The position numbers were made by a program, and so were the translations under genes. 64,000 nt of DNA, taken from the NCBI GenBank assembly GCA_023663635.1, contig JAMPHD010000013.1, positions 1 through 64,000 on the forward strand, read 5' to 3'. The first letter of the stretch is position 1, and the number at the start of each line of letters is the position of its first letter. Positions 6,328 to 22,927 of the stretch are shown here, one piece after another. Origin of the DNA: Acetatifactor muris (GTDB lineage: Bacteria > Bacillota > Clostridia > Lachnospirales > Lachnospiraceae). The notes beneath the pieces are model-generated. The model worked only from the letters and a program-made list of their open reading frames with translations, was not told where the DNA came from and did no database searches.

Positions 6328-8376
6328 CTATACATACTTTATGACATCCGTCCTCTTCTTTAACATCGCACCCTCGCTATAGGGATATCCCAAAGCAACT
6401 GACGCCCATATAATGTGATTTTCCGGTACCTCAAAATCGTCCAGAACCGTTTTGACCGGTTCCACATCCCGCAGAGTTCTCAAGGGATTCAGCCACACGG
6501 AACCGATGCCATAGGAATATGCCGCAAGCATCATGTTCTCCACAGCGCAAGACGCATCCTGACATCCGTGCGGATTCCGCTTGTCGTTAGATACCAGAAT
6601 GATCGCCTGCGGATTCTCAAACCCATAAAAATTAACCTTTTCGCGCAACGCAGTCTCCCTTGTCCGTTCCCTTAACCTCTGTATGTCCTCCTGCTTTGTC
6701 AATACCGTGAATTTCCAAGACTGCATATTGTGACCGCTTGGAGCATGATAGCCGGTGCGCAGGATCATCTCCAGAATCTCCTTTGGGATCTCCCGATCCG
6801 TAAACCTTCGTATGCTCCTCCTGGACAGCAGCGCCTGAATAACGGGATTCATCAGATCCATACTCCCACGGTTCTCCCAAATTTTCCTCAGTTCCTTACG
6901 GTCGAGTTTCTGCATGGCATTTCTCGGCAGACTCTCCAATTGCATCACTTTTCGGGGCAATTTGTATCGCTCCGCTCTGTCTGAGATAAATTTGATCAGC
7001 TCTTCTTCCGAATATCCGCTCTTTACCACCACGAACAGGACAGGCACCTGTCCCATCACACCGTCCTCGTCTTCCACACCGATACAGGCACATTCCTGTA
7101 TCCCCGGGTATTGGCCTGCTATATTTTCCACCTCTATCGGGGATACCTTCTCCCCACCCACGTTGATGATGTCATCCGCGCGACCCAACATATATATATA
7201 CCCGTCCCGGTCCTCATACGCCATGTCTCCCGTCACAAGCCATCCGTCCACCAAAGCCTCAGCCGTAAGGGAAGGCATGTTCCAGTACCCGGCCATCTGC
7301 ATATCCCCCTGCAGCGTCATCCGCCCCGGATTACTTACATTGGCCTCTATCAGATTGCCGTCCTCGTCCAGAAATTTAACGCAAACCGCTCCCTCCAACG
7401 GTCTCCCTAAGGAGGCCACTTTCACGGGATCCTTCACCACTTCGGAGACATTGCAAAAGATGGCGCCGCCGGATTCCGAACTGCCCCAAGTATTGTAAAT
7501 CGTTGTACCGGGAAGGAGCGATGTGATTTCCTTTCGCTGTTGCACGGATAAGGATCCCGCGCCGAATTCAATATACCGAAACCGACTGCAAACCGGCACA
7601 AAGGCATCCTGCATCTGTCTGCGCATCACCTCATAGGATGCCGGTACGCATGCAAGGGCAGTACAATGCCATGTATTGACATTGTTCTCCACCTCCTTCG
7701 CAAAGGTGAAACCGTTCTGGAATACCACCATAGCCCCCTGATACAGAACTGCCCGCAGGACTCTCAACGCATAGGAGTGGTTCAGCGGCAGAGGGAGCAG
7801 AAGGATCTCATCCTCCCTGATGCCGATTCCCCGAATGGTATTAGCCAGGATATGATACACCGCCTTATAGGTCAGCATGACTCCCTTGGGCTGCCCGGTG
7901 GTTCCGGTCGTAAACAAAAGCTCTGCGACGGCTGACTCGTCCCTCTGTATCCTGTCCGCCACAGTTGCCTCATCCTGAGGCATCCCGTCCGCATCCTTAT
8001 AAGCCTGCCGCAGTGACAGGATCCTGCAACCCGCGGCATGTTCTTTCATCGGCTTATCCGTCAGCAGCAAGGTACTGCCGGCCCTTTCATATACAGCGGC
8101 CATGTTCTCAGGCGTAGCGTTCTTGTCCAAAAATACCACAATTGCTCCACATAATTGAGTGGCCAGATATACCGCCGGCATCTCAGGTCCGGACACGGCC
8201 GAGAAACAGACTCTGTCGCCCTCCGACACACCCTGTTCTCTGAGCAGGACAGCCATACCCTGTATCTTCCCCCACAACTGCCCATAGGTCAGCATTTCTT
8301 TCTTATAGGCTACCGCCGGTCTGTCCGGCTTTGACGCTGCCAATTCCCTGATCCGCTCCACCAATATCTCTGTCAT
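6328..8376 (-). CDS. Fusion: AMP-forming acyl/aminoacyl ligase + nitroreductase-family flavoprotein
   Basis: The 682-residue protein has two domains. Residues 1-505 are a class I adenylate-forming enzyme, with the P-loop TTGTTGQPKG (about 155-164), the YNTWGSSE motif, GDMAYEDRDGY, the GRADDIINVGGEKVSP hinge and the C-terminal catalytic Lys in NAMQKLDRKEL. From about 512 a nitroreductase domain follows: SRRSIRRFTDREIP, HAPSGHNMQSWKF and GIGSVWLNPL, typical of FMN-dependent NAD(P)H oxidoreductases. It is followed downstream by wzx and preceded by genes for an acyl carrier protein, an MBOAT and a DHHW protein, as in a DltABCD-type set. The likely role is activating an acid or amino acid, loading the carrier, and perhaps a redox step. 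The substrate is unknown. Confidence 0.85.
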   Translation of the reverse strand: MTEILVERIRELAASKPDRPAVAYKKEMLTYGQLWGKIQGMAVLLREQGVSEGDRVCFSAVSGPEMPAVYLATQLCGAIVVFLDKNATPENMAAVYERAGSTLLLTDKPMKEHAAGCRILSLRQAYKDADGMPQDEATVADRIQRDESAVAELLFTTGTTGQPKGVMLTYKAVYHILANTIRGIGIREDEILLLPLPLNHSYALRVLRAVLYQGAMVVFQNGFTFAKEVENNVNTWHCTALACVPASYEVMRRQMQDAFVPVCSRFRYIEFGAGSLSVQQRKEITSLLPGTTIYNTWGSSESGGAIFCNVSEVVKDPVKVASLGRPLEGAVCVKFLDEDGNLIEANVSNPGRMTLQGDMQMAGYWNMPSLTAEALVDGWLVTGDMAYEDRDGYIYMLGRADDIINVGGEKVSPIEVENIAGQYPGIQECACIGVEDEDGVMGQVPVLFVVVKSGYSEEELIKFISDRAERYKLPRKVMQLESLPRNAMQKLDRKELRKIWENRGSMDLMNPVIQALLSRRSIRRFTDREIPKEILEMILRTGYHAPSGHNMQSWKFTVLTKQEDIQRLRERTRETALREKVNFYGFENPQAIILVSNDKRNPHGCQDASCAVENMMLAAYSYGIGSVWLNPLRTLRDVEPVKTVLDDFEVPENHIIWASVALGYPYSEGAMLKKRTDVIKYV

Positions 8377-15020: not shown

Positions 15021-17192
15021 TTACCAATCCGCCGCATTTCCTGTCTGCTGAGCAAAGCAGTCATAACAGACATTTTCAATATCCTCAATTGTTTGTTCAA
15101 AATTTTCATACGGCTGAAAATAAATGCCATCGACTCTAAAATAATCGCTTAAATCCTCTGCCCTGACTTGACAGGATAATAATTCCCTGTCCGGTTGGAT
15201 ATATTGCCCACATTTATTCCTGCAGACAGGAGTCGGTATACAAATGTACACTTTTTGAGCGCCGCATGCTTTTACCATATCACATACCACTTTAAGTGTT
15301 GTTCCGGTAAAAATTGCTTCGTCAACCAATGCGATCTTCCTGCCGGCGATCAACTCCTTGATCGGGAAAATTTTTGAACGGATCATCTGCTTTCTCAACG
15401 CCATATCTGCATTTTGAAACGTCCTGACATTTGTATCCGGCTTAATAAGCGCCTGAAGATAAGGTTTTCCTAACTGTTCAGCAATACCCATTGCATAGAA
15501 TAATCCCGAAGACGGAACGGGTACAACATAATCTACATTGCGGCTCACTTCCAACGGCAGAGAATCACCCATAAGTTTCCCAAGCAGATATCTGTAATTT
15601 CCAACCGTTTTCCCATATATGTGTTCTATAGGACTGCTCTCATAAATCAGCCTAAACACACATCCCTTTTGCTTTCTCAGTATCTGAGTTCCCATACCTA
15701 CATTGGAAACAGCAAAATCTCTGCCCCCCCGGTCAACCTCCAGGCAAACATGGGGAGGACGGTTGGCCAAACTGCTTTGGTCATCTGCCGTGATCAACGT
15801 CTCATCACAGCCAAACTCTTTGGCAATAATCTTTGCCCAACTATATTTAGTCACAGGCATTCGGCTTGTAATGTGAATGATCCCGATTTCTCCAAGCGCC
15901 TCGGAAATAGCAATAGCCACCTCATCAATCAACACCGGATATCTGATCTGCCGATTATCTAACTTTAATTTTTCTCCGCATCTCAACTTATCCAAAACCC
16001 GGATTGGGAATGTCAACTTATCTGTCTCATCATTATATCCATAAATTATGGGAATTCTTATAATCAAACTGTTATCGTAATGTGATACAATATCCTCAGC
16101 CTGACATTTGGTTTCTCCATAATAATTTTTCGGATGCCTTTCCGCATGATGACCATACGGCTCTTCGGATTCACCGTCAAATACATAATCTGTAGAAATA
16201 TAAATTAATTTAATATTCCTCCTTGAACAAACTTCCGTCAAGATCTTTGTAGTAACTACATTTGTTTGCCAAGCTGTTTCTTTATCTTTCTCGCATTGAT
16301 CCGGGTCGGCTATATTAGCCGTATGGATCACAATATTCGGATGTTTCAGCTCCAAATAAGCTTCAACCCTATTAGCGTCACATAGATCAAGTGTTTCCAT
16401 CGGTAGATCCGAATGCGGTCCTTTTACTTCTTCCACTCTATAATTTCGTTTTAAAACATGGCATATCTTTTTCCCCAAAAAACCGGATGCCCCGGTCACC
16501 ATAATTGAAAAATTCTCTATTCCAAAAATCCGTTTCGCCTCAAAATATTCGAAGTATGAGTTGATCCCGCATATTTTTGAGGGACAAAAAATACATTGAA
16601 CATGAACATCCCGTAAAATTTGATTCAACGGCACGGTATACCATGTCTTTTCCATCCCGGAAATACTCAATGCCCTCTTCATATCCGGTAAGTGTTCCCA
16701 ACAGATTTTCATCATACCGGTATATATCACGTCCGAAGAAATATGTTTGCCGATTGCGGTTACATATCCCGATCCTGAGTTCATCTCAATTCCGGTTGCC
16801 CCATACTCTCCCTCACTTTTAATTGCAAGAAGTGTACTCCCTTCGCTTGCCAAAAGAGACTTTACAGCCTCTTTCTCAAATATCAGATCCCCGTCAAGAA
16901 CCAAGACATCCTCTTCTATTTGTTTTAACGCTAAATAAAGACTATAGCTGTTGTCAGTCCCATAATACTTCTCATTATATATAATGTCACACAATCCCAA
17001 TGACTCTATTTTTTCCTTCTTGTAACCTGCCACAATCAAAACGTCTTCCGGTCTGAAACCACAGCATTTTAAAATTCGGAACTGTCTTTCTATAATTAAC
17101 TCATTTCCAAATTCCAACATACATTTGGGTCTGTCCTCCGTTAATTTCCCAAGTCTGGTTCCTTTCCCTGCCGCCAAAATAATTGCCTTCAT
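15021..17192 (-). CDS. Three-domain fusion: LicC-like nucleotidyltransferase + RmlD-like SDR + PurF-like phosphoribosyltransferase
   Basis: The 723-residue protein has three recognisable parts. Residues 1-225 are a LicC-type NTP transferase (AAGKGTRLGKLTEDRPKCM, LDGDLIFE). Residues 228-495 are an extended SDR of the RmlD type (TGASGFLGKK, STDYVFDG, catalytic YGETK at 358-362). Residues 508-715 match the PRTase half of amidophosphoribosyltransferase: CVFRLIYESSP, YVVPVPSSG, LIKPDTNVRTF and the PRPP loop ALVDEAIFTGTT at 621-632. The PurF glutaminase domain is absent. Its start overlaps the preceding licC-like gene by an ATGA junction. It may build a nucleotide-activated modified sugar or phosphoribosyl donor, but the reaction is unknown. 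A G7 tract at 15724 is in frame. Confidence 0.85.
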   Translation of the reverse strand: MKAIILAAGKGTRLGKLTEDRPKCMLEFGNELIIERQFRILKCCGFRPEDVLIVAGYKKEKIESLGLCDIIYNEKYYGTDNSYSLYLALKQIEEDVLVLDGDLIFEKEAVKSLLASEGSTLLAIKSEGEYGATGIEMNSGSGYVTAIGKHISSDVIYTGMMKICWEHLPDMKRALSISGMEKTWYTVPLNQILRDVHVQCIFCPSKICGINSYFEYFEAKRIFGIENFSIMVTGASGFLGKKICHVLKRNYRVEEVKGPHSDLPMETLDLCDANRVEAYLELKHPNIVIHTANIADPDQCEKDKETAWQTNVVTTKILTEVCSRRNIKLIYISTDYVFDGESEEPYGHHAERHPKNYYGETKCQAEDIVSHYDNSLIIRIPIIYGYNDETDKLTFPIRVLDKLRCGEKLKLDNRQIRYPVLIDEVAIAISEALGEIGIIHITSRMPVTKYSWAKIIAKEFGCDETLITADDQSSLANRPPHVCLEVDRGGRDFAVSNVGMGTQILRKQKGCVFRLIYESSPIEHIYGKTVGNYRYLLGKLMGDSLPLEVSRNVDYVVPVPSSGLFYAMGIAEQLGKPYLQALIKPDTNVRTFQNADMALRKQMIRSKIFPIKELIAGRKIALVDEAIFTGTTLKVVCDMVKACGAQKVYICIPTPVCRNKCGQYIQPDRELLSCQVRAEDLSDYFRVDGIYFQPYENFEQTIEDIENVCYDCFAQQTGNAADW
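15724..15730 (-). repeat. G7 homopolymer inside the LicC-SDR-PRTase fusion gene (in frame)
   Basis: Seven C on the plus strand, coding for Gly-Gly in EVDRGGRDF (residues 489-490), right at the border between the SDR and PRTase domains. A one-base change would remove only the PRTase domain. Confidence 0.8.
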
Positions 17193-17878
17193 GCCTCAAC
17201 CTCATTAAACATTTCAAGGGTCTCTTTGTAATCTTCAACAAAGTCAATTTCATGCCACTTTTCCTGTGTGACTAAATTTTTAAATTTGTATTTACCGCAG
17301 ATCTCCGTAATCGCAAGAGTATACCATGTCTTTACGCTATGTTCATTGAGCAATGCCTCCCGAAACGGCAGAATTGTATCCTTTCCAATCTTAAAAATAC
17401 TGATATATACAAATCCGGTATGATGATATTGCTTACCAATGGCTTCCACATATCCGTCACCGTTCATAACGATCCCGGTGCTTTCCACTGAATCATCTGA
17501 TTTTTTACTCAACAAAACATTATCATACGGATATTGCACTATTTCGTCTATCAGTTCTTTCTCAAAGCATAGGTCAGAGTCTAAAATCAATATATCGTCA
17601 TCATACACAGATTGAAGGGCAAGTCCCAAACTATATGCATTATCTTTTTTATCATATTCCGGATTTATGATCAGATTTTCCGTAAATTTTTTCAACATTT
17701 CATGTTTGTATCCACCAACTACATAAATTGCATGTCTTTCAATTCCCGCCTCCTGCAATAGGCGAATCTCCCGTTCCAGAAGACTCTCTTCTCCTATACG
17801 AAGCAGGCACTTAGGCGCCCCTTTTGTATACTCATTTAACCGCTTGCCTGCTCCGGCTGCCAAAATAATTGCTTTCAT
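17189..17878 (-). CDS. LicC-like sugar/choline-phosphate nucleotidyltransferase
   Basis: The 229-residue single-domain nucleotidyltransferase has MKAIILAAGAGKRLNEYTKG, APKCLL and ILDSDLCFE, and is a clear paralogue of the first domain of the downstream fusion protein. LicC enzymes make CDP-choline from CTP and phosphocholine, and relatives activate other small phosphorylated alcohols. The adjacent LicD-family transferase suggests a CDP-linked phospho-alcohol for polysaccharide decoration. Choline itself cannot be assumed: no licA kinase or licB transporter is in the window. Confidence 0.85.
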   Translation of the reverse strand: MKAIILAAGAGKRLNEYTKGAPKCLLRIGEESLLEREIRLLQEAGIERHAIYVVGGYKHEMLKKFTENLIINPEYDKKDNAYSLGLALQSVYDDDILILDSDLCFEKELIDEIVQYPYDNVLLSKKSDDSVESTGIVMNGDGYVEAIGKQYHHTGFVYISIFKIGKDTILPFREALLNEHSVKTWYTLAITEICGKYKFKNLVTQEKWHEIDFVEDYKETLEMFNEVEA

Positions 17879-17895: not shown

Positions 17896-18709
17896 CTATA
17901 CTTCCTCATTCCACCATGCGTCAAGGGTGTGATTTGACTCGCGCTCTTCAATCGGCGGCATTTTCATATAATCTCCATAAAGACCGGATAAATAATCCTC
18001 ATACCGAACCGGAGCCCACAAAGTCGTATCTTCAAAGGGCATTTCTACAATCGTTTCAAATATGCTCTGACGAAAAATTTCTCTTTTCCCATATCTTCCG
18101 GCAGCATTCGCTATATATCGCGACTTATCAAAATCTTTTATCGCAGCAAGGAAATTAAAAAGCTTATTCAAATTATAGGTGCCTATCATTTTGGCTATCA
18201 GCCATGGGATGGCAAATATAATTGTCTTGGGCAGAGTCTCCATGCGAAAATTTCTTTTACTAAGAAAAACCGCTCTTGTAAAAATCTTTAAAGTCCAATA
18301 CCACGCCTTAGCTGTAATGAGAGAATTCCCCATGCCGTCCAAAGGAAAAACATCCAGATACACGGAGGATATTTCTCTCCCGTTCCCTAACTTGTAATCA
18401 ATTAAGGTTGTCCGCGTATCCAGCATTTTCGGGAAAGAATACCCATATGTTCTATCATTATCAAAAAATGAAATTTTGTAATAACCTTCCCTATCCTTTA
18501 AAACATCCCGTAATTTTAAAAAATCTTTTCTCGGCATAGCTAAATCTATATCATCATCCCAAGGAATAAATCCCCCATGCCGAGCCCCCCCCTAAGAGCG
18601 TTCCTCCAACTATGAAATAACGGAGTTCGTTTTCCCGGCAGACTTTATCAAAATATTTAACCATGTCCAATTCTATATTTTTAATCTCTTCTAATCCAAT
18701 CTTCCTCAT
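17896..18709 (-). pseudogene. LicD-family phosphotransferase, frameshifted at a G8 tract (possible phase-off state)
   Basis: Translation from the ATG at 18709 gives MRKIGLEEIKNIELDMVKYF and later FIVGGTLLG, the usual LicD N-terminus. At a run of eight G (18585-18592) the frame shifts and hits a stop within about ten codons. In the +1-corrected frame the text continues RHGGFIPWDDDIDLAMPRKDF, the LicD metal-binding signature, and runs to the normal end at 17896. The total is 814 bases, one more than a multiple of three, so seven G would restore a 270-residue protein. LicD transfers phosphocholine-like groups from a CDP carrier to sugars. It is most likely an off-state, though an assembly error is possible. 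Confidence 0.85.
18585..18592 (-). repeat. G8 homopolymer causing +1 frameshift in licD-like gene
   Basis: Eight C on the plus strand (eight G in the coding strand) within the codons for GGTLLGGARH. Seven would keep the LicD frame. A homopolymer at the exact site of the break fits slipped-strand mispairing. Confidence 0.85.
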
Positions 18710-19325: not shown

Positions 19326-20399
19326 CTATAGTAATCCCCGTCTCCGCAAATCCTTCAATGCATCCGCCAATATTGTATTGTCCTCTTTGGTCAACGCACC
19401 AATATGCCCTACCCGAAACATCTTGTCGGACAACTCTCCTCCATTCGGACAAACCCAAATTCCATACTCGTCCTTCAACGTAATAAATATATCATATGCA
19501 GACACATTTAACGGATGGAGCGCCGTCACGGCATTGGACATATTTTCCGAGACAAAAGCGAGCGGTAAACCCTCTATTTTATGTCGAAAATCCTCTGCCA
19601 AATCCGCAACCTTTTGCACTTCATGATCCGGTCCACCCGCTAACTCAATCTCCTTCAGTCTCGCATGTATTTGGCGCAGGACGCTCACTGCAGGCGTAAA
19701 AGGAGTCTGTCCCCGCTCTCCATCCTTTAACGCACGTCTCAAGTCCAGATACATACACTTTGTACCGTGATCTTCCACACGCTTTATTGCTCTGTCTGAA
19801 AGTACAATTACAGAAACACCGGGAGGACAGGCGAGCGCTTTCTGGGAACCGGAAATCATAACATCCGCCCCCAGAGCAGACATATGGAACTCATCCGCCA
19901 GAAAGGAACTGATTGCATCTACCACTAAAAAAATATGGTTTCGCTTGCAAAACCGGCTGATCAGCTCCATATCATAGAGTACTCCCGTGGATGTCTCATT
20001 CATATTCACCAATAAACCGGTATAGCCCTGTCCATCATACTGTAAAAGCTGCTCTTCTTTTAAAGCTTTGCCAACATCAAGGGGGATGACCGTATGAGGT
20101 ACCTGATGAATCTCACACAATTCCACAAAGCGTTGTCCAAAACTGCCGCCATTTATCGCAAGGACCCTGTCGTCATGGTCAAAAACATTCATGATCACGG
20201 CTTCCATTGACGCCGTACCCGAACCCGTGATAAATACTGCTCTTGCATTATCCTCCGCCCCTGCAAACCGTTTCAGCAACCTCTCATTCTCCAACATGAC
20301 AGCAGAAAATTCCGAAGTCCTAAAATAAGGCACTTGCTCCGCACCAATTGCAAGAACCGTCCCACTCCCCATAACCGGTCCGACCGTAAAATTTAACAT
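19326..20399 (-). CDS. Class V PLP-dependent aminotransferase
   Basis: The 357-residue enzyme begins [13 protein letters not shown], a class V signature shared by serine-pyruvate, alanine-glyoxylate and 2-aminoethylphosphonate aminotransferases. It contains [12 protein letters not shown], the cofactor Asp in VVDAISSF, and the Schiff-base Lys in [13 protein letters not shown]. The last motif is closer to alanine-glyoxylate than to 2-aminoethylphosphonate enzymes, and no phosphoenolpyruvate mutase is nearby. The ATG at 20399 has GGAGG six bases upstream. Placed after a TagD-oxidoreductase fusion and before an acetyltransferase, it may aminate a small carbonyl compound that becomes a polysaccharide decoration. 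Confidence 0.85.
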
Positions 20400-20424
20400 G
20401 ATTACCCTCCATTTTGTAAAAAGT

Positions 20425-21744
20425 TCACAAAATAATCGTATCTTTTCTATTATCAAAATCTCCCATAATTTCAGAGATTGCCAAAGTTATATTCTCCGGT
20501 ATGTAAGTCTCAGATTTTCCCTTATTTACAGATCTTAAAAAGCTGACAATCGCATACCGGATGCCTTCTCCTTCAAGTTGATAAAAATATCGCTTATTCC
20601 TTTCCGAATTTTCATATCGCACTTCAAAATAGTCAGTCTTCCACCATGGCGCCGGTACATACACATAACCGTTTGTACCCGTGACCACCAACTCGCCCTC
20701 TGACTTTGCGCCATTAGCGACCTTTACGGATGCCACAGACCTATTATAAACAAACTCCACTTTTGTAAATATATCTTCTCCCGACTCATTGAGTCTCACC
20801 TTTATGGATTTTGAGCGATATTCCGTACCCAATATGGAAAATACCGCCAATAATCCAAACGGTCCCCATGAATACAAGCTGCCTCTTTGATCTCCATCCA
20901 TTTTTCTAAGACTGGTGCAGGTTGCATCCACCGACACCACATCCCCGATATAACCGCTCTTTACAAGCAATTGTAGTCTGGAAAAAGCTAACGCATACGC
21001 CGTTTTAATGGACTCCTGAAGAATACAACTGTGATCACGCGCGATTGCCATCAGCTCTTCAACCTCAGAAGCATTCATGGCCACCGGCGACTCACACAGA
21101 ACATGAATTCCCCTTTCCAATGCCGCCTTGATCTGTTGATAATGTCTGCCCGGATGTGATACCAGATACACCGCATTCACTTCATTCAAAAGCTCTTCAT
21201 ATGTTTCTCTAAATCTGACACTGCCTTTTAATGTATCCGATAAATTGGTCTCGCTGTCTGAGTGAACTGATACAATCTCAACTCCATTCACATAGGTGCT
21301 CTCGCGGGCAAGTTTCTCAAGTTCACTGCTTGAATTACCGACCAACCCAATGCGAAGCGTGTATGCCTTCTCCCGCAACCCGGAACTGGATACCCCTTGT
21401 GTCCGCTCTAAGTAAACGACTTTACAAAACTCTCTTAAGTAATCAAAATGCCCTTCCCAGTCTGATCCCACCGTAAAGATATCCACATCATATCGGCGAA
21501 TATCATCTATCTTTTGACCCTCGTACTCTTCGATAATGATTTCATCTGCCAAGCCCGTAGCCCGAACCGCTTCCACCCGCTCCTCCAAAGACTGTTTTAC
21601 ATTAATTTTCCCCCGCATCCGGTCAAACGAGTCAGAAGTGACACCTACGATCAGATAATCCCCCAATTCTTTTGCCCTCTCCAACAACCTGATGTGACCG
21701 TGATGAAACATATCATAGGTTCCATATGTAATGACCTTAATCAT
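20425..21744 (-). CDS. Fusion: TagD-like cytidylyltransferase + Gfo/Idh/MocA-type oxidoreductase
   Basis: The 439-residue protein starts with a complete TagD-type domain (residues 1-128): [10 protein letters not shown] with the HxGH nucleotidyl-transfer motif, and RTQGVSSS near its end. From residue 131 a Rossmann oxidoreductase follows ([20 protein letters not shown]). The catalytic Lys of the usual Glu-Lys-Pro motif is Ser219 here, so the second domain may be a binding or altered enzyme instead of a normal dehydrogenase. The TagF-like transferase gene just upstream in the operon is a candidate user of the CDP-activated product. Confidence 0.85.
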
Positions 21745-21766: not shown

Positions 21767-22927
21767 CTAATGCCGAATATTGCTCAACTCCAACAGACGT
21801 TTACACGCATCGCCATCATCATACTTATGTACAATATTCTTAACCCGTTTCCGCTCCTGCTCATAGGAATCATTCCCCAACGAAAGATCATTTAAGAACT
21901 GATAAAATTCTTCCTGTGTTTTAATCTTATACCCCGGCATATATTCCTCCGGATTATCAAAAACAAATCCTCTTTGTCTGCCGTACTCTTCTATATCAGG
22001 TATGACATATGCACAGGGTTTGTCTAATAACAAGAATTGTAGAGACACTGATGAATAGTCTCCAATCAGAACATCAATCTGCATAAGTAATTGATACAAA
22101 TCATATCCTAGCCTGACAAAATCATCATTTGAGCAAATACTTAAATTAGAAAAATCCGATAAATGATATTCCTCCAATGATTGCGCCCCATGCAGTTTTA
22201 CTATTAGTTTGTAATTGTATTGCTTTAACTTTTCATTCAACAGATTATAATCGTCCGCATCGAAAAGCGGAACCACCCGATTCTCCGGGGAATCGGAATA
22301 TCCCAAGTTCTCTGATCTTCTAAATGTCGGGAGCCACAGCAACAATTTATCATAGTTTCCTAATTGGTATCTCTCTCGCAATGGTCTATAAAAAGCCGAG
22401 GTAGTCGGTTCATTACATACGACCACATTGTCCTCGCTACAGAGATATTCCCGGGCGACGATCGGCACATAATAATCCCCTGATGTAGTCATATAGGTAA
22501 AGAAAAACTCGTCTCCATTATTAATATTTGTCAACGCTCCTGTTGTCTTGTAATCACTTGTTCCATGATTCATATGAATCACAATCTGTTCTTTACTTGG
22601 TTTAATTGGAATCTGGCCGGCCGTATAAAATACATGACCTGCGCGAAAAAAAGTCATAACAGACTTTAACTTTCCTACATATTTTACATTTAGATAATCC
22701 TTTCCTTTATATTTTAAATTTTCTATCCCACATACTATAGTATATTTTTCATTATATCCTTCCTCTACCAAATACTCTAACAGGGGTTTTAAATTATGTC
22801 GCAGTCCCTGACTTGAAATATAGAGTAAAATAATTCTATCATCCTTTACTGTCAATTTGTTTAAACAGGATAACGGTTTAAATATCAGATTCTTTAGTAT
22901 TTTTTTCACTCTAACATTTTTTAACAT
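21767..22927 (-). CDS. CDP-glycerol glycerophosphotransferase family (TagB/TagF-like)
   Basis: The 386-residue GT-B-like enzyme has the conserved His segment IVIHMNHGTSDY and the C-terminal LIGDYSSVSLQFLLLDKP, both typical of TagB/TagF family members. These move glycerol-phosphate or ribitol-phosphate from CDP to a glycan or teichoic chain at the membrane. The N-terminus lacks a long extension, so it is the single-domain type. The cytidylyltransferase fusion next to it probably provides the donor. Confidence 0.88.
   Translation of the reverse strand: MLKNVRVKKILKNLIFKPLSCLNKLTVKDDRIILLYISSQGLRHNLKPLLEYLVEEGYNEKYTIVCGIENLKYKGKDYLNVKYVGKLKSVMTFFRAGHVFYTAGQIPIKPSKEQIVIHMNHGTSDYKTTGALTNINNGDEFFFTYMTTSGDYYVPIVAREYLCSEDNVVVCNEPTTSAFYRPLRERYQLGNYDKLLLWLPTFRRSENLGYSDSPENRVVPLFDADDYNLLNEKLKQYNYKLIVKLHGAQSLEEYHLSDFSNLSICSNDDFVRLGYDLYQLLMQIDVLIGDYSSVSLQFLLLDKPCAYVIPDIEEYGRQRGFVFDNPEEYMPGYKIKTQEEFYQFLNDLSLGNDSYEQERKRVKNIVHKYDDGDACKRLLELSNIRH

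Follow-up and report, generated by a model that had tools for sequence, protein, structure and literature searches.

Phosphodiester groups on the bacterial surface, phosphocholine and aminoethylphosphonate among them, influence recognition by the host, and the logic of the donor pathways is that a small phospho- or phosphono-compound is made, activated with CTP and then transferred. In CDP-ribitol synthesis (Bcs1, TarI/TarJ), a nucleotidyltransferase (NTase) and a dehydrogenase feed a CDP-alditol to a TagF-type transferase. Activation by an NTase is the described logic of the LicC and PntC pathways (PMC6697681). The stretch of DNA analyzed here (the window, 64,000 nucleotides) encodes a LicC-type NTase next to a second, LicC-like NTase that is fused to an RmlD-type extended SDR and a PurF-type phosphoribosyltransferase (PRTase). 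A CTP-activated donor module is of a known kind; a PRPP-dependent form of it, if our reading is right, would be new.

Domain architecture and distribution of the fusion

The fused gene (15021..17192, minus strand; 723 aa, ATG start) was delimited from its open reading frame and domain scans. Its product begins with the LicC-like NTase domain (residues 1-222; 16527..17192, minus strand), continues with the RmlD-type extended SDR domain (residues 226-495; 15708..16517, minus strand), which was placed by domain scans, alignment and fold match, and ends with the PRTase domain (residues 505-714; 15051..15680, minus strand), placed by PurF profile and PDB matches. Pfam families cover residues 3-131 (NTP_transf_3, 9e-16), 230-487 (RmlD_sub_bind, 2.7e-46) and 550-652 (Pribosyltran, 4e-10), and the NCBIfam PurF model TIGR01134 spans residues 495-714 (2e-25). 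This last alignment has no match before model position 217, so the fusion lacks the glutaminase half, and the NTase-SDR part sits at the N-terminus, where PurF has its N-terminal Cys glutaminase domain. Sequence matches in the PDB are to LicC (1jyk), RmlD/MAT2B and PurF (6lbp/1ao0), and a fold search with an AF2 model of the whole fusion (pLDDT 77.9) recovers the same three folds. With the PRTase modelled by itself (pLDDT 81.8), PurF structures rank top by far (6lbp, 3.5e-16; next family, 3e-6); both models were built from inputs of 8-9 sequences and are of moderate confidence, with the flexible loop and the C-terminus unreliable. The open reading frame, Pfam and PDB results thus agree with the initial annotation, which had proposed LicC-, RmlD- and PurF-like domains without a glutaminase in one polypeptide.

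Seven full-length relatives (L042-L048), each a single open reading frame of 711-730 aa, are 45-64% identical to the window protein; together with it they make up the eight fusions compared below, and a stand-alone PRTase at L049 brings the PRTase family to nine members. Carrier genomes are MAGs and isolates of Clostridia, plus one Fibrimonadales MAG. The relatives came from scanning 84,980 species genomes for two short peptide patterns; eight loci were returned (seven full fusions and the lone PRTase), a count that the use of such patterns makes a lower bound. A search of 299 genomes of the same family gave one other full fusion, at 53% identity, and L044 from the pattern scan shows the same sequence match. 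Besides the window gene, a phylum search with the PRTase profile yielded only PurF-length matches (open frames of 400-512 aa), no relatives were found among viral contigs, and plasmid matches were limited to the RmlD-like SDR. The fusion is a rare but conserved bacterial protein, neither unique nor broken in frame among its relatives, an outcome that the initial annotation had named as one that would speak against its proposal. A seven-G run lies in the SDR-PRTase linker (15724-15730), which could hint at a chance fusion or misassembly; the same fusion recurs in seven other assemblies, in one frame each, and these homologues refute an artefact, which we consider almost certainly wrong and have rejected.

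We did not find the three domains as separate adjacent genes elsewhere, an arrangement that the initial annotation had suggested looking for. The stand-alone PRTase (L049:9977-10621) is flanked by transketolase genes within a cluster resembling those of sugar catabolism, and has Asn at the position equivalent to PurF K349. Transketolase was rejected as a component of the system, being nearby in L043 and L049 only. The combination had also been described as unrecognized from known pathways, and this stands: literature searches, which mostly did not extend to subscription papers, gave nothing relevant on the triple fusion or on a glutaminase-free PurF in glycan synthesis, and no curated family was found that covers the NTase-SDR-PRTase architecture.

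Catalytic residues of the three domains

The Gly-rich NAD(P) loop, the STDYVFDG motif and YGxTK (YxxxK) of the SDR are kept in all eight fusions, bearing out the earlier observation that loop and YxxxK are intact; this conservation suggests that the domain is likely redox-active. The score against the RmlD model TIGR01214 (150.4 bits) falls under the equivalog cut-off (224.05), so we class the domain only as an extended SDR, and dTDP-4-ketorhamnose is an unlikely substrate.

Upstream of the fusion, and overlapping it by 4 bp, lies the stand-alone LicC-type NTase (17189..17878, minus strand; 229 aa), in which every catalytic position is intact, as it is in the paired LicC of each of the eight loci. 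The fused NTase differs. Its second metal-binding Asp is Asn in 8/8 fusions and the partner Glu is Gly in 3/8; at this C-terminal Glu/Asp metal pair, each of the 21 other NTases in the comparison has E and D. The GXG(T/S)RX4-8PK motif retains its R and PK in six of eight, the window copy included (GxGTR..PK), the exceptions being L047, where K23 is Arg (PR), and L048, where the catalytic R13 is lost; DxD is kept throughout (8/8). In PntC, Ala at the equivalent Arg or Lys leaves less than 10% activity. Stand-alone LicC and fused domain fall in one clade (support 100/99) within which the fused copies are monophyletic (97/99), suggesting that the pair arose by tandem duplication. Mean identity is 46% among the fused copies and 56% among the paired LicCs, so the fused copy evolves faster, and we interpret it as altered or partly inactive. 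The stand-alone LicC is the likelier cytidylyltransferase of the two. The initial annotation had assigned LicC chemistry to the fusion itself, which is unsupported given the loss of the metal-binding Asp in 8/8 and the intact LicC next door.

The same residues bear on a different order of events, in which the fused NTase is active in the manner of GlmU and starts the path: an NDP-sugar would be made, modified by the SDR and given a phosphoribosyl unit by the PRTase, with LicC serving another substrate. The Mg ligand of GlmU is Asn, the GIN/GVN of the fused domain resembles GlmU, and RmlD-type enzymes usually use nucleotide sugars; an active domain with Asn as metal ligand would alter the step order we propose below. 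The retained Arg, PK and DxD fit such activity, but the faster evolution of the fused copies and the changes in L047 and L048, at positions where Ala cripples PntC, argue against it, and we regard this order as rather improbable.

In the PRTase, the PRPP loop LVDEAIFTGTTL (residues 622-633; 15294..15329, minus strand) belongs to a LVDEA[IV]FTGTTL motif present in all nine family members by alignment. The initial annotation had called the loop intact; loop and PRPP residues are indeed conserved, but the window reads LVDEAIFTGTT and not the LVDDSIVRGTT of PurF. The equivalents of Y258, R332 and D366 and the loop GTT, which contact PRPP in E. coli PurF, are kept in 9/9, those of K326 and K349 in 8/9, and the D367 equivalent is Glu. 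Thus a PRTase lacking key PRPP residues, which would have spoken against the early proposal, is not what we see. In the flexible-loop equivalent (residues 584-607; 15372..15443, minus strand), the K326, R332 and K349 counterparts of the window protein are kept and those of Y329 and I335 are lost. Across the family, Gln, Asn, Asp or Trp stands in for Ile335, and Thr, Pro, Asn or Gly for Tyr329; neither Ile nor Tyr occurs there in any of nine PRTases, as against 30/30 PurFs for each. E. coli PurF Ile335 forms a wall of the ammonia channel together with glutaminase Tyr74. With PRPP contacts kept and channel residues replaced, the PRPP half of the site is preserved and the acceptor side remodelled.

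Four cysteines are likewise kept in 9/9: by alignment with B. subtilis PurF (1ao0), Cys511 (15660..15662), Cys661 (15210..15212), Cys709 (15066..15068) and Cys712 (15057..15059, all minus strand) correspond to Cys236, Cys382, Cys437 and Cys440, which are the [4Fe-4S] ligands of the Bacillus enzyme. The fusion scores 89.9 bits against TIGR01134 (curated cut-off, 350 bits), and in a tree with 30 clostridial PurFs the fusions and L049 form their own clade (100/100). A PurF paralogue beside purA at L007 (G000 contig 11, ~471.5 kb) was rejected as the ancestor of the fused PRTase, as it clusters with the PurFs, albeit on a long branch; it starts MGGFFG, without the Cys that a working glutaminase has at its N-terminus, and its PRPP loop contains RGTQ.

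Could the domain be a non-catalytic sensor of PRPP or nucleotides that regulates the NTase-SDR part, like PyrR-like or PurR-like regulators? PRTase folds are known to be reused as sensors, and the PRPP-binding loop is conserved with no evident acceptor site. All eight fusions nevertheless keep the acidic dyad and the R332/K349 equivalents, which a sensor need not, and no other domain of the fusion is as well conserved as the PRTase (mean identity 54.6%); we find a regulatory role very unlikely.

The locus and its donor slot

LicC is the gene immediately upstream from the fusion in all eight loci, at a spacing of -4 to about +19 bp. Beyond it, six loci carry a TagF-type transferase, which in L043-L047 is encoded by YidC-TagF, either the gene or just the C-terminal portion of it, and in L048 consists of YidC and TagF as separate genes; the other two, the window and L042, carry LicD. 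The window gene for the LicD-family phosphotransferase (17896..18709, minus strand) is split by a frameshift at an eight-G run (18585-18592), a slippage-prone tract that points to phase variation or sequencing error; the L042 homologue (278 aa) is intact. The window locus further encodes an initiating sugar transferase, glycosyltransferases, a pyruvyltransferase, an O-antigen-ligase-like protein and a TagF-like CDP-glycerol glycerophosphotransferase family protein (21767..22927, minus strand; PF04464, 1.5e-38), which may be another enzyme that uses the donor.

At 19326-21744 of the window (minus strand), a gene for a TagD-like cytidylyltransferase-GFO/IDH oxidoreductase fusion overlaps a PhnW-like class V aminotransferase gene, which together resemble a second donor module. 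An AMP-binding ligase and a nitroreductase domain are fused in a 682-aa protein (6328-8376, minus strand). A choline kinase C-terminal remnant directly follows the fusion gene in L043 (10663-11043), a trace of donor-module exchange. A small membrane protein with the motif Y(I/L)DPS...TYAIQ is conserved near YidC-TagF in L043, L045, L046, L055, L071, L076, L078-L080, L082 and L083; its L045 copy had no Pfam match.

For comparison we took 16 YidC-TagF loci of the same family and class that lack the fusion. In 13 of these an NTase donor gene lies within about six genes of YidC-TagF. Eight of the 13 modules are of phosphonate type (PEP mutase (PepM) with a TagD-like domain, phosphonopyruvate decarboxylase (Ppd), an aminotransferase or Fe-ADH, and an NTase), three are NTase-aminotransferase fusions, one is an NTase-choline kinase fusion with IspD and one a class V aminotransferase with an NTase, calls that were Pfam-confirmed for representatives and made by sequence likeness for the others, several phosphonate ones included. 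The LicC and fusion genes thus occupy the slot of known donor modules. The initial annotation had placed the gene in a glycan setting with a donor-making role, and both the pairing with LicC and a TagF/LicD-type transferase in 8/8 loci and the CDP/CMP-donor modules found in this slot in relatives bear this out. Beside YidC-TagF, L074 (5714-7576), L076 (5884-7689) and L078 (9599-11422) carry fusions of a LicC-type NTase with a class I/II aminotransferase, possibly an undescribed CDP-amino-alcohol donor module. TagF phylogeny was rejected as a guide to donor type, as the TagF nearest to that of L044 adjoins a choline-type module.

The setting also raises the prospect that ribose-5-phosphate passes from PRPP straight to a glycan hydroxyl and is then dephosphorylated, as with CriT of Hib Bcs3 or gPRT. 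In surface glycans, direct donation of ribofuranose by PRPP is established (PMC10299916, PMC11127046), and this is a glycan locus. Yet CriT has its acidic residues on separate loops where the fusion has a vicinal D-E in a PurF-type loop; among the matches listed, sequence and fold searches give PurF and not Bcs3; and a motif scan over limited flanks gave no HAD-motif open reading frame in the window, nor at L043 and L045-L048, five of the seven remaining fusion loci. Direct phosphoribosylation of the glycan would moreover leave the fused SDR, the fused NTase and the LicC pairing unexplained. It has less support than a donor module, and we think it improbable.

A proposed PRPP-fed donor module and its known counterparts

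The fusion probably makes an undescribed cell-surface building block from PRPP. We favour, with about even confidence, a reading in which LicC and the fusion form a PRPP-fed module for a CDP-activated, pentose-phosphate-derived donor, CDP-X, that is used by a TagF/LicD-type transferase. The PRTase would bind PRPP and let a small nucleophile, which may be free ammonia, a different amine or an alcohol, displace pyrophosphate and take up the 5-phosphoribosyl group. The RmlD-type SDR would then reduce or epimerize the pentose-5-phosphate, plausibly trapping an unstable product within the same polypeptide, after which the stand-alone LicC, docked to or aided by its fused paralogue, would add CMP to the 5-phosphate, and a TagF-like or LicD-like transferase would place phospho-X on the glycan. 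We infer these reactions, their order and the identity of X from the domain make-up, the PRPP, redox and Fe-S residues, the strict gene pairing and the slot position. Against this path, two NTases exceed the needs of a simple route, the lost channel residues mean that PurF chemistry cannot be assumed, and TagF phylogeny does not follow donor type.

In a more specific form of this scheme, nearest to the amine idea of the initial annotation, the PRTase would use free NH3 to give 5-phosphoribosylamine, the SDR would reduce the open-chain imine to 1-amino-1-deoxyribitol 5-phosphate, and LicC would produce CDP-aminoribitol. The PurF ancestry of the domain fits, as does the instability of phosphoribosylamine, which would favour fusion to a trapping enzyme, and the pairing of NTase and dehydrogenase, which recalls Bcs1 and TarIJ; the alternative slot modules, too, mostly resemble amine head groups (AEP, choline). 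This has to be set against the missing glutaminase and replaced channel residues, the slot modules that appear non-amine (Fe-ADH in L083), and the fact that RmlD-type enzymes are not known to act as imine reductases. An amine product is possible; with I335 and Y329 lost, phosphoribosylamine cannot simply be carried over from PurF, and we hold the ammonia route as a whole to be doubtful.

If a PRPP-fed module is the right reading, a PurF-derived domain replaces the usual kinase or phosphonate genes, the donor logic reaches into central nucleotide metabolism, and an undescribed surface substituent is predicted. At its most far-reaching, a glutaminase-free, Fe-S-bearing relative of the purine-pathway enzyme PurF would have been recruited to cell-surface chemistry to make, from PRPP, an aminated or otherwise modified pentitol phosphate that is CDP-activated and that TagF/LicD-type transferases polymerize or attach, giving teichoic-acid-like substituents of a new class; this we consider unlikely, if conceivable. 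The fusion is also a natural test of how a PurF PRTase behaves after loss of the glutaminase and ammonia channel.

Among described systems, PurF of the Fe-S (Bacillus) class resembles the fusion PRTase in fold, sequence (~30% identity), PRPP-binding residues and the four Fe-S cysteines, whereas the fusion has no glutaminase, carries the acidic pair D-E, has lost I335/Y329, is joined to an NTase-SDR part and forms a separate clade. By fold and by sequence, the middle domain, whose catalytic motif is intact, matches the RmlD/MAT2B extended SDRs best. CriT/Bcs3 and the gPRT ribofuranosyltransferases share with the fusion a putatively PRPP-dependent PRTase-like domain in a surface-glycan locus, but belong to another PRTase lineage; their linked HAD phosphatase was not found near the window gene, and the CriT acidic pair (D680/E818) is split over two loops, in contrast to the single-loop D624-E625. 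LicC and PntC match the window pair in the stand-alone partner with all catalytic positions, the TagF/LicD neighbours and the donor-module logic; they differ from it in that the window pair includes a fused copy, with Asn in place of the metal-binding Asp, that leads into the SDR and the PRTase. CDP-ribitol synthase relies on an IspD-type NTase and ribulose-5-phosphate, the window module on a LicC-type NTase and, as proposed here, PRPP. PntC-AEPT (Tde1415) and the NTase-choline kinase fusions, like the window fusion, join an NTase to substrate-supplying enzymes; in the window fusion the suppliers are instead an SDR and a putative PRPP-dependent PRTase, and a second, intact NTase adjoins.
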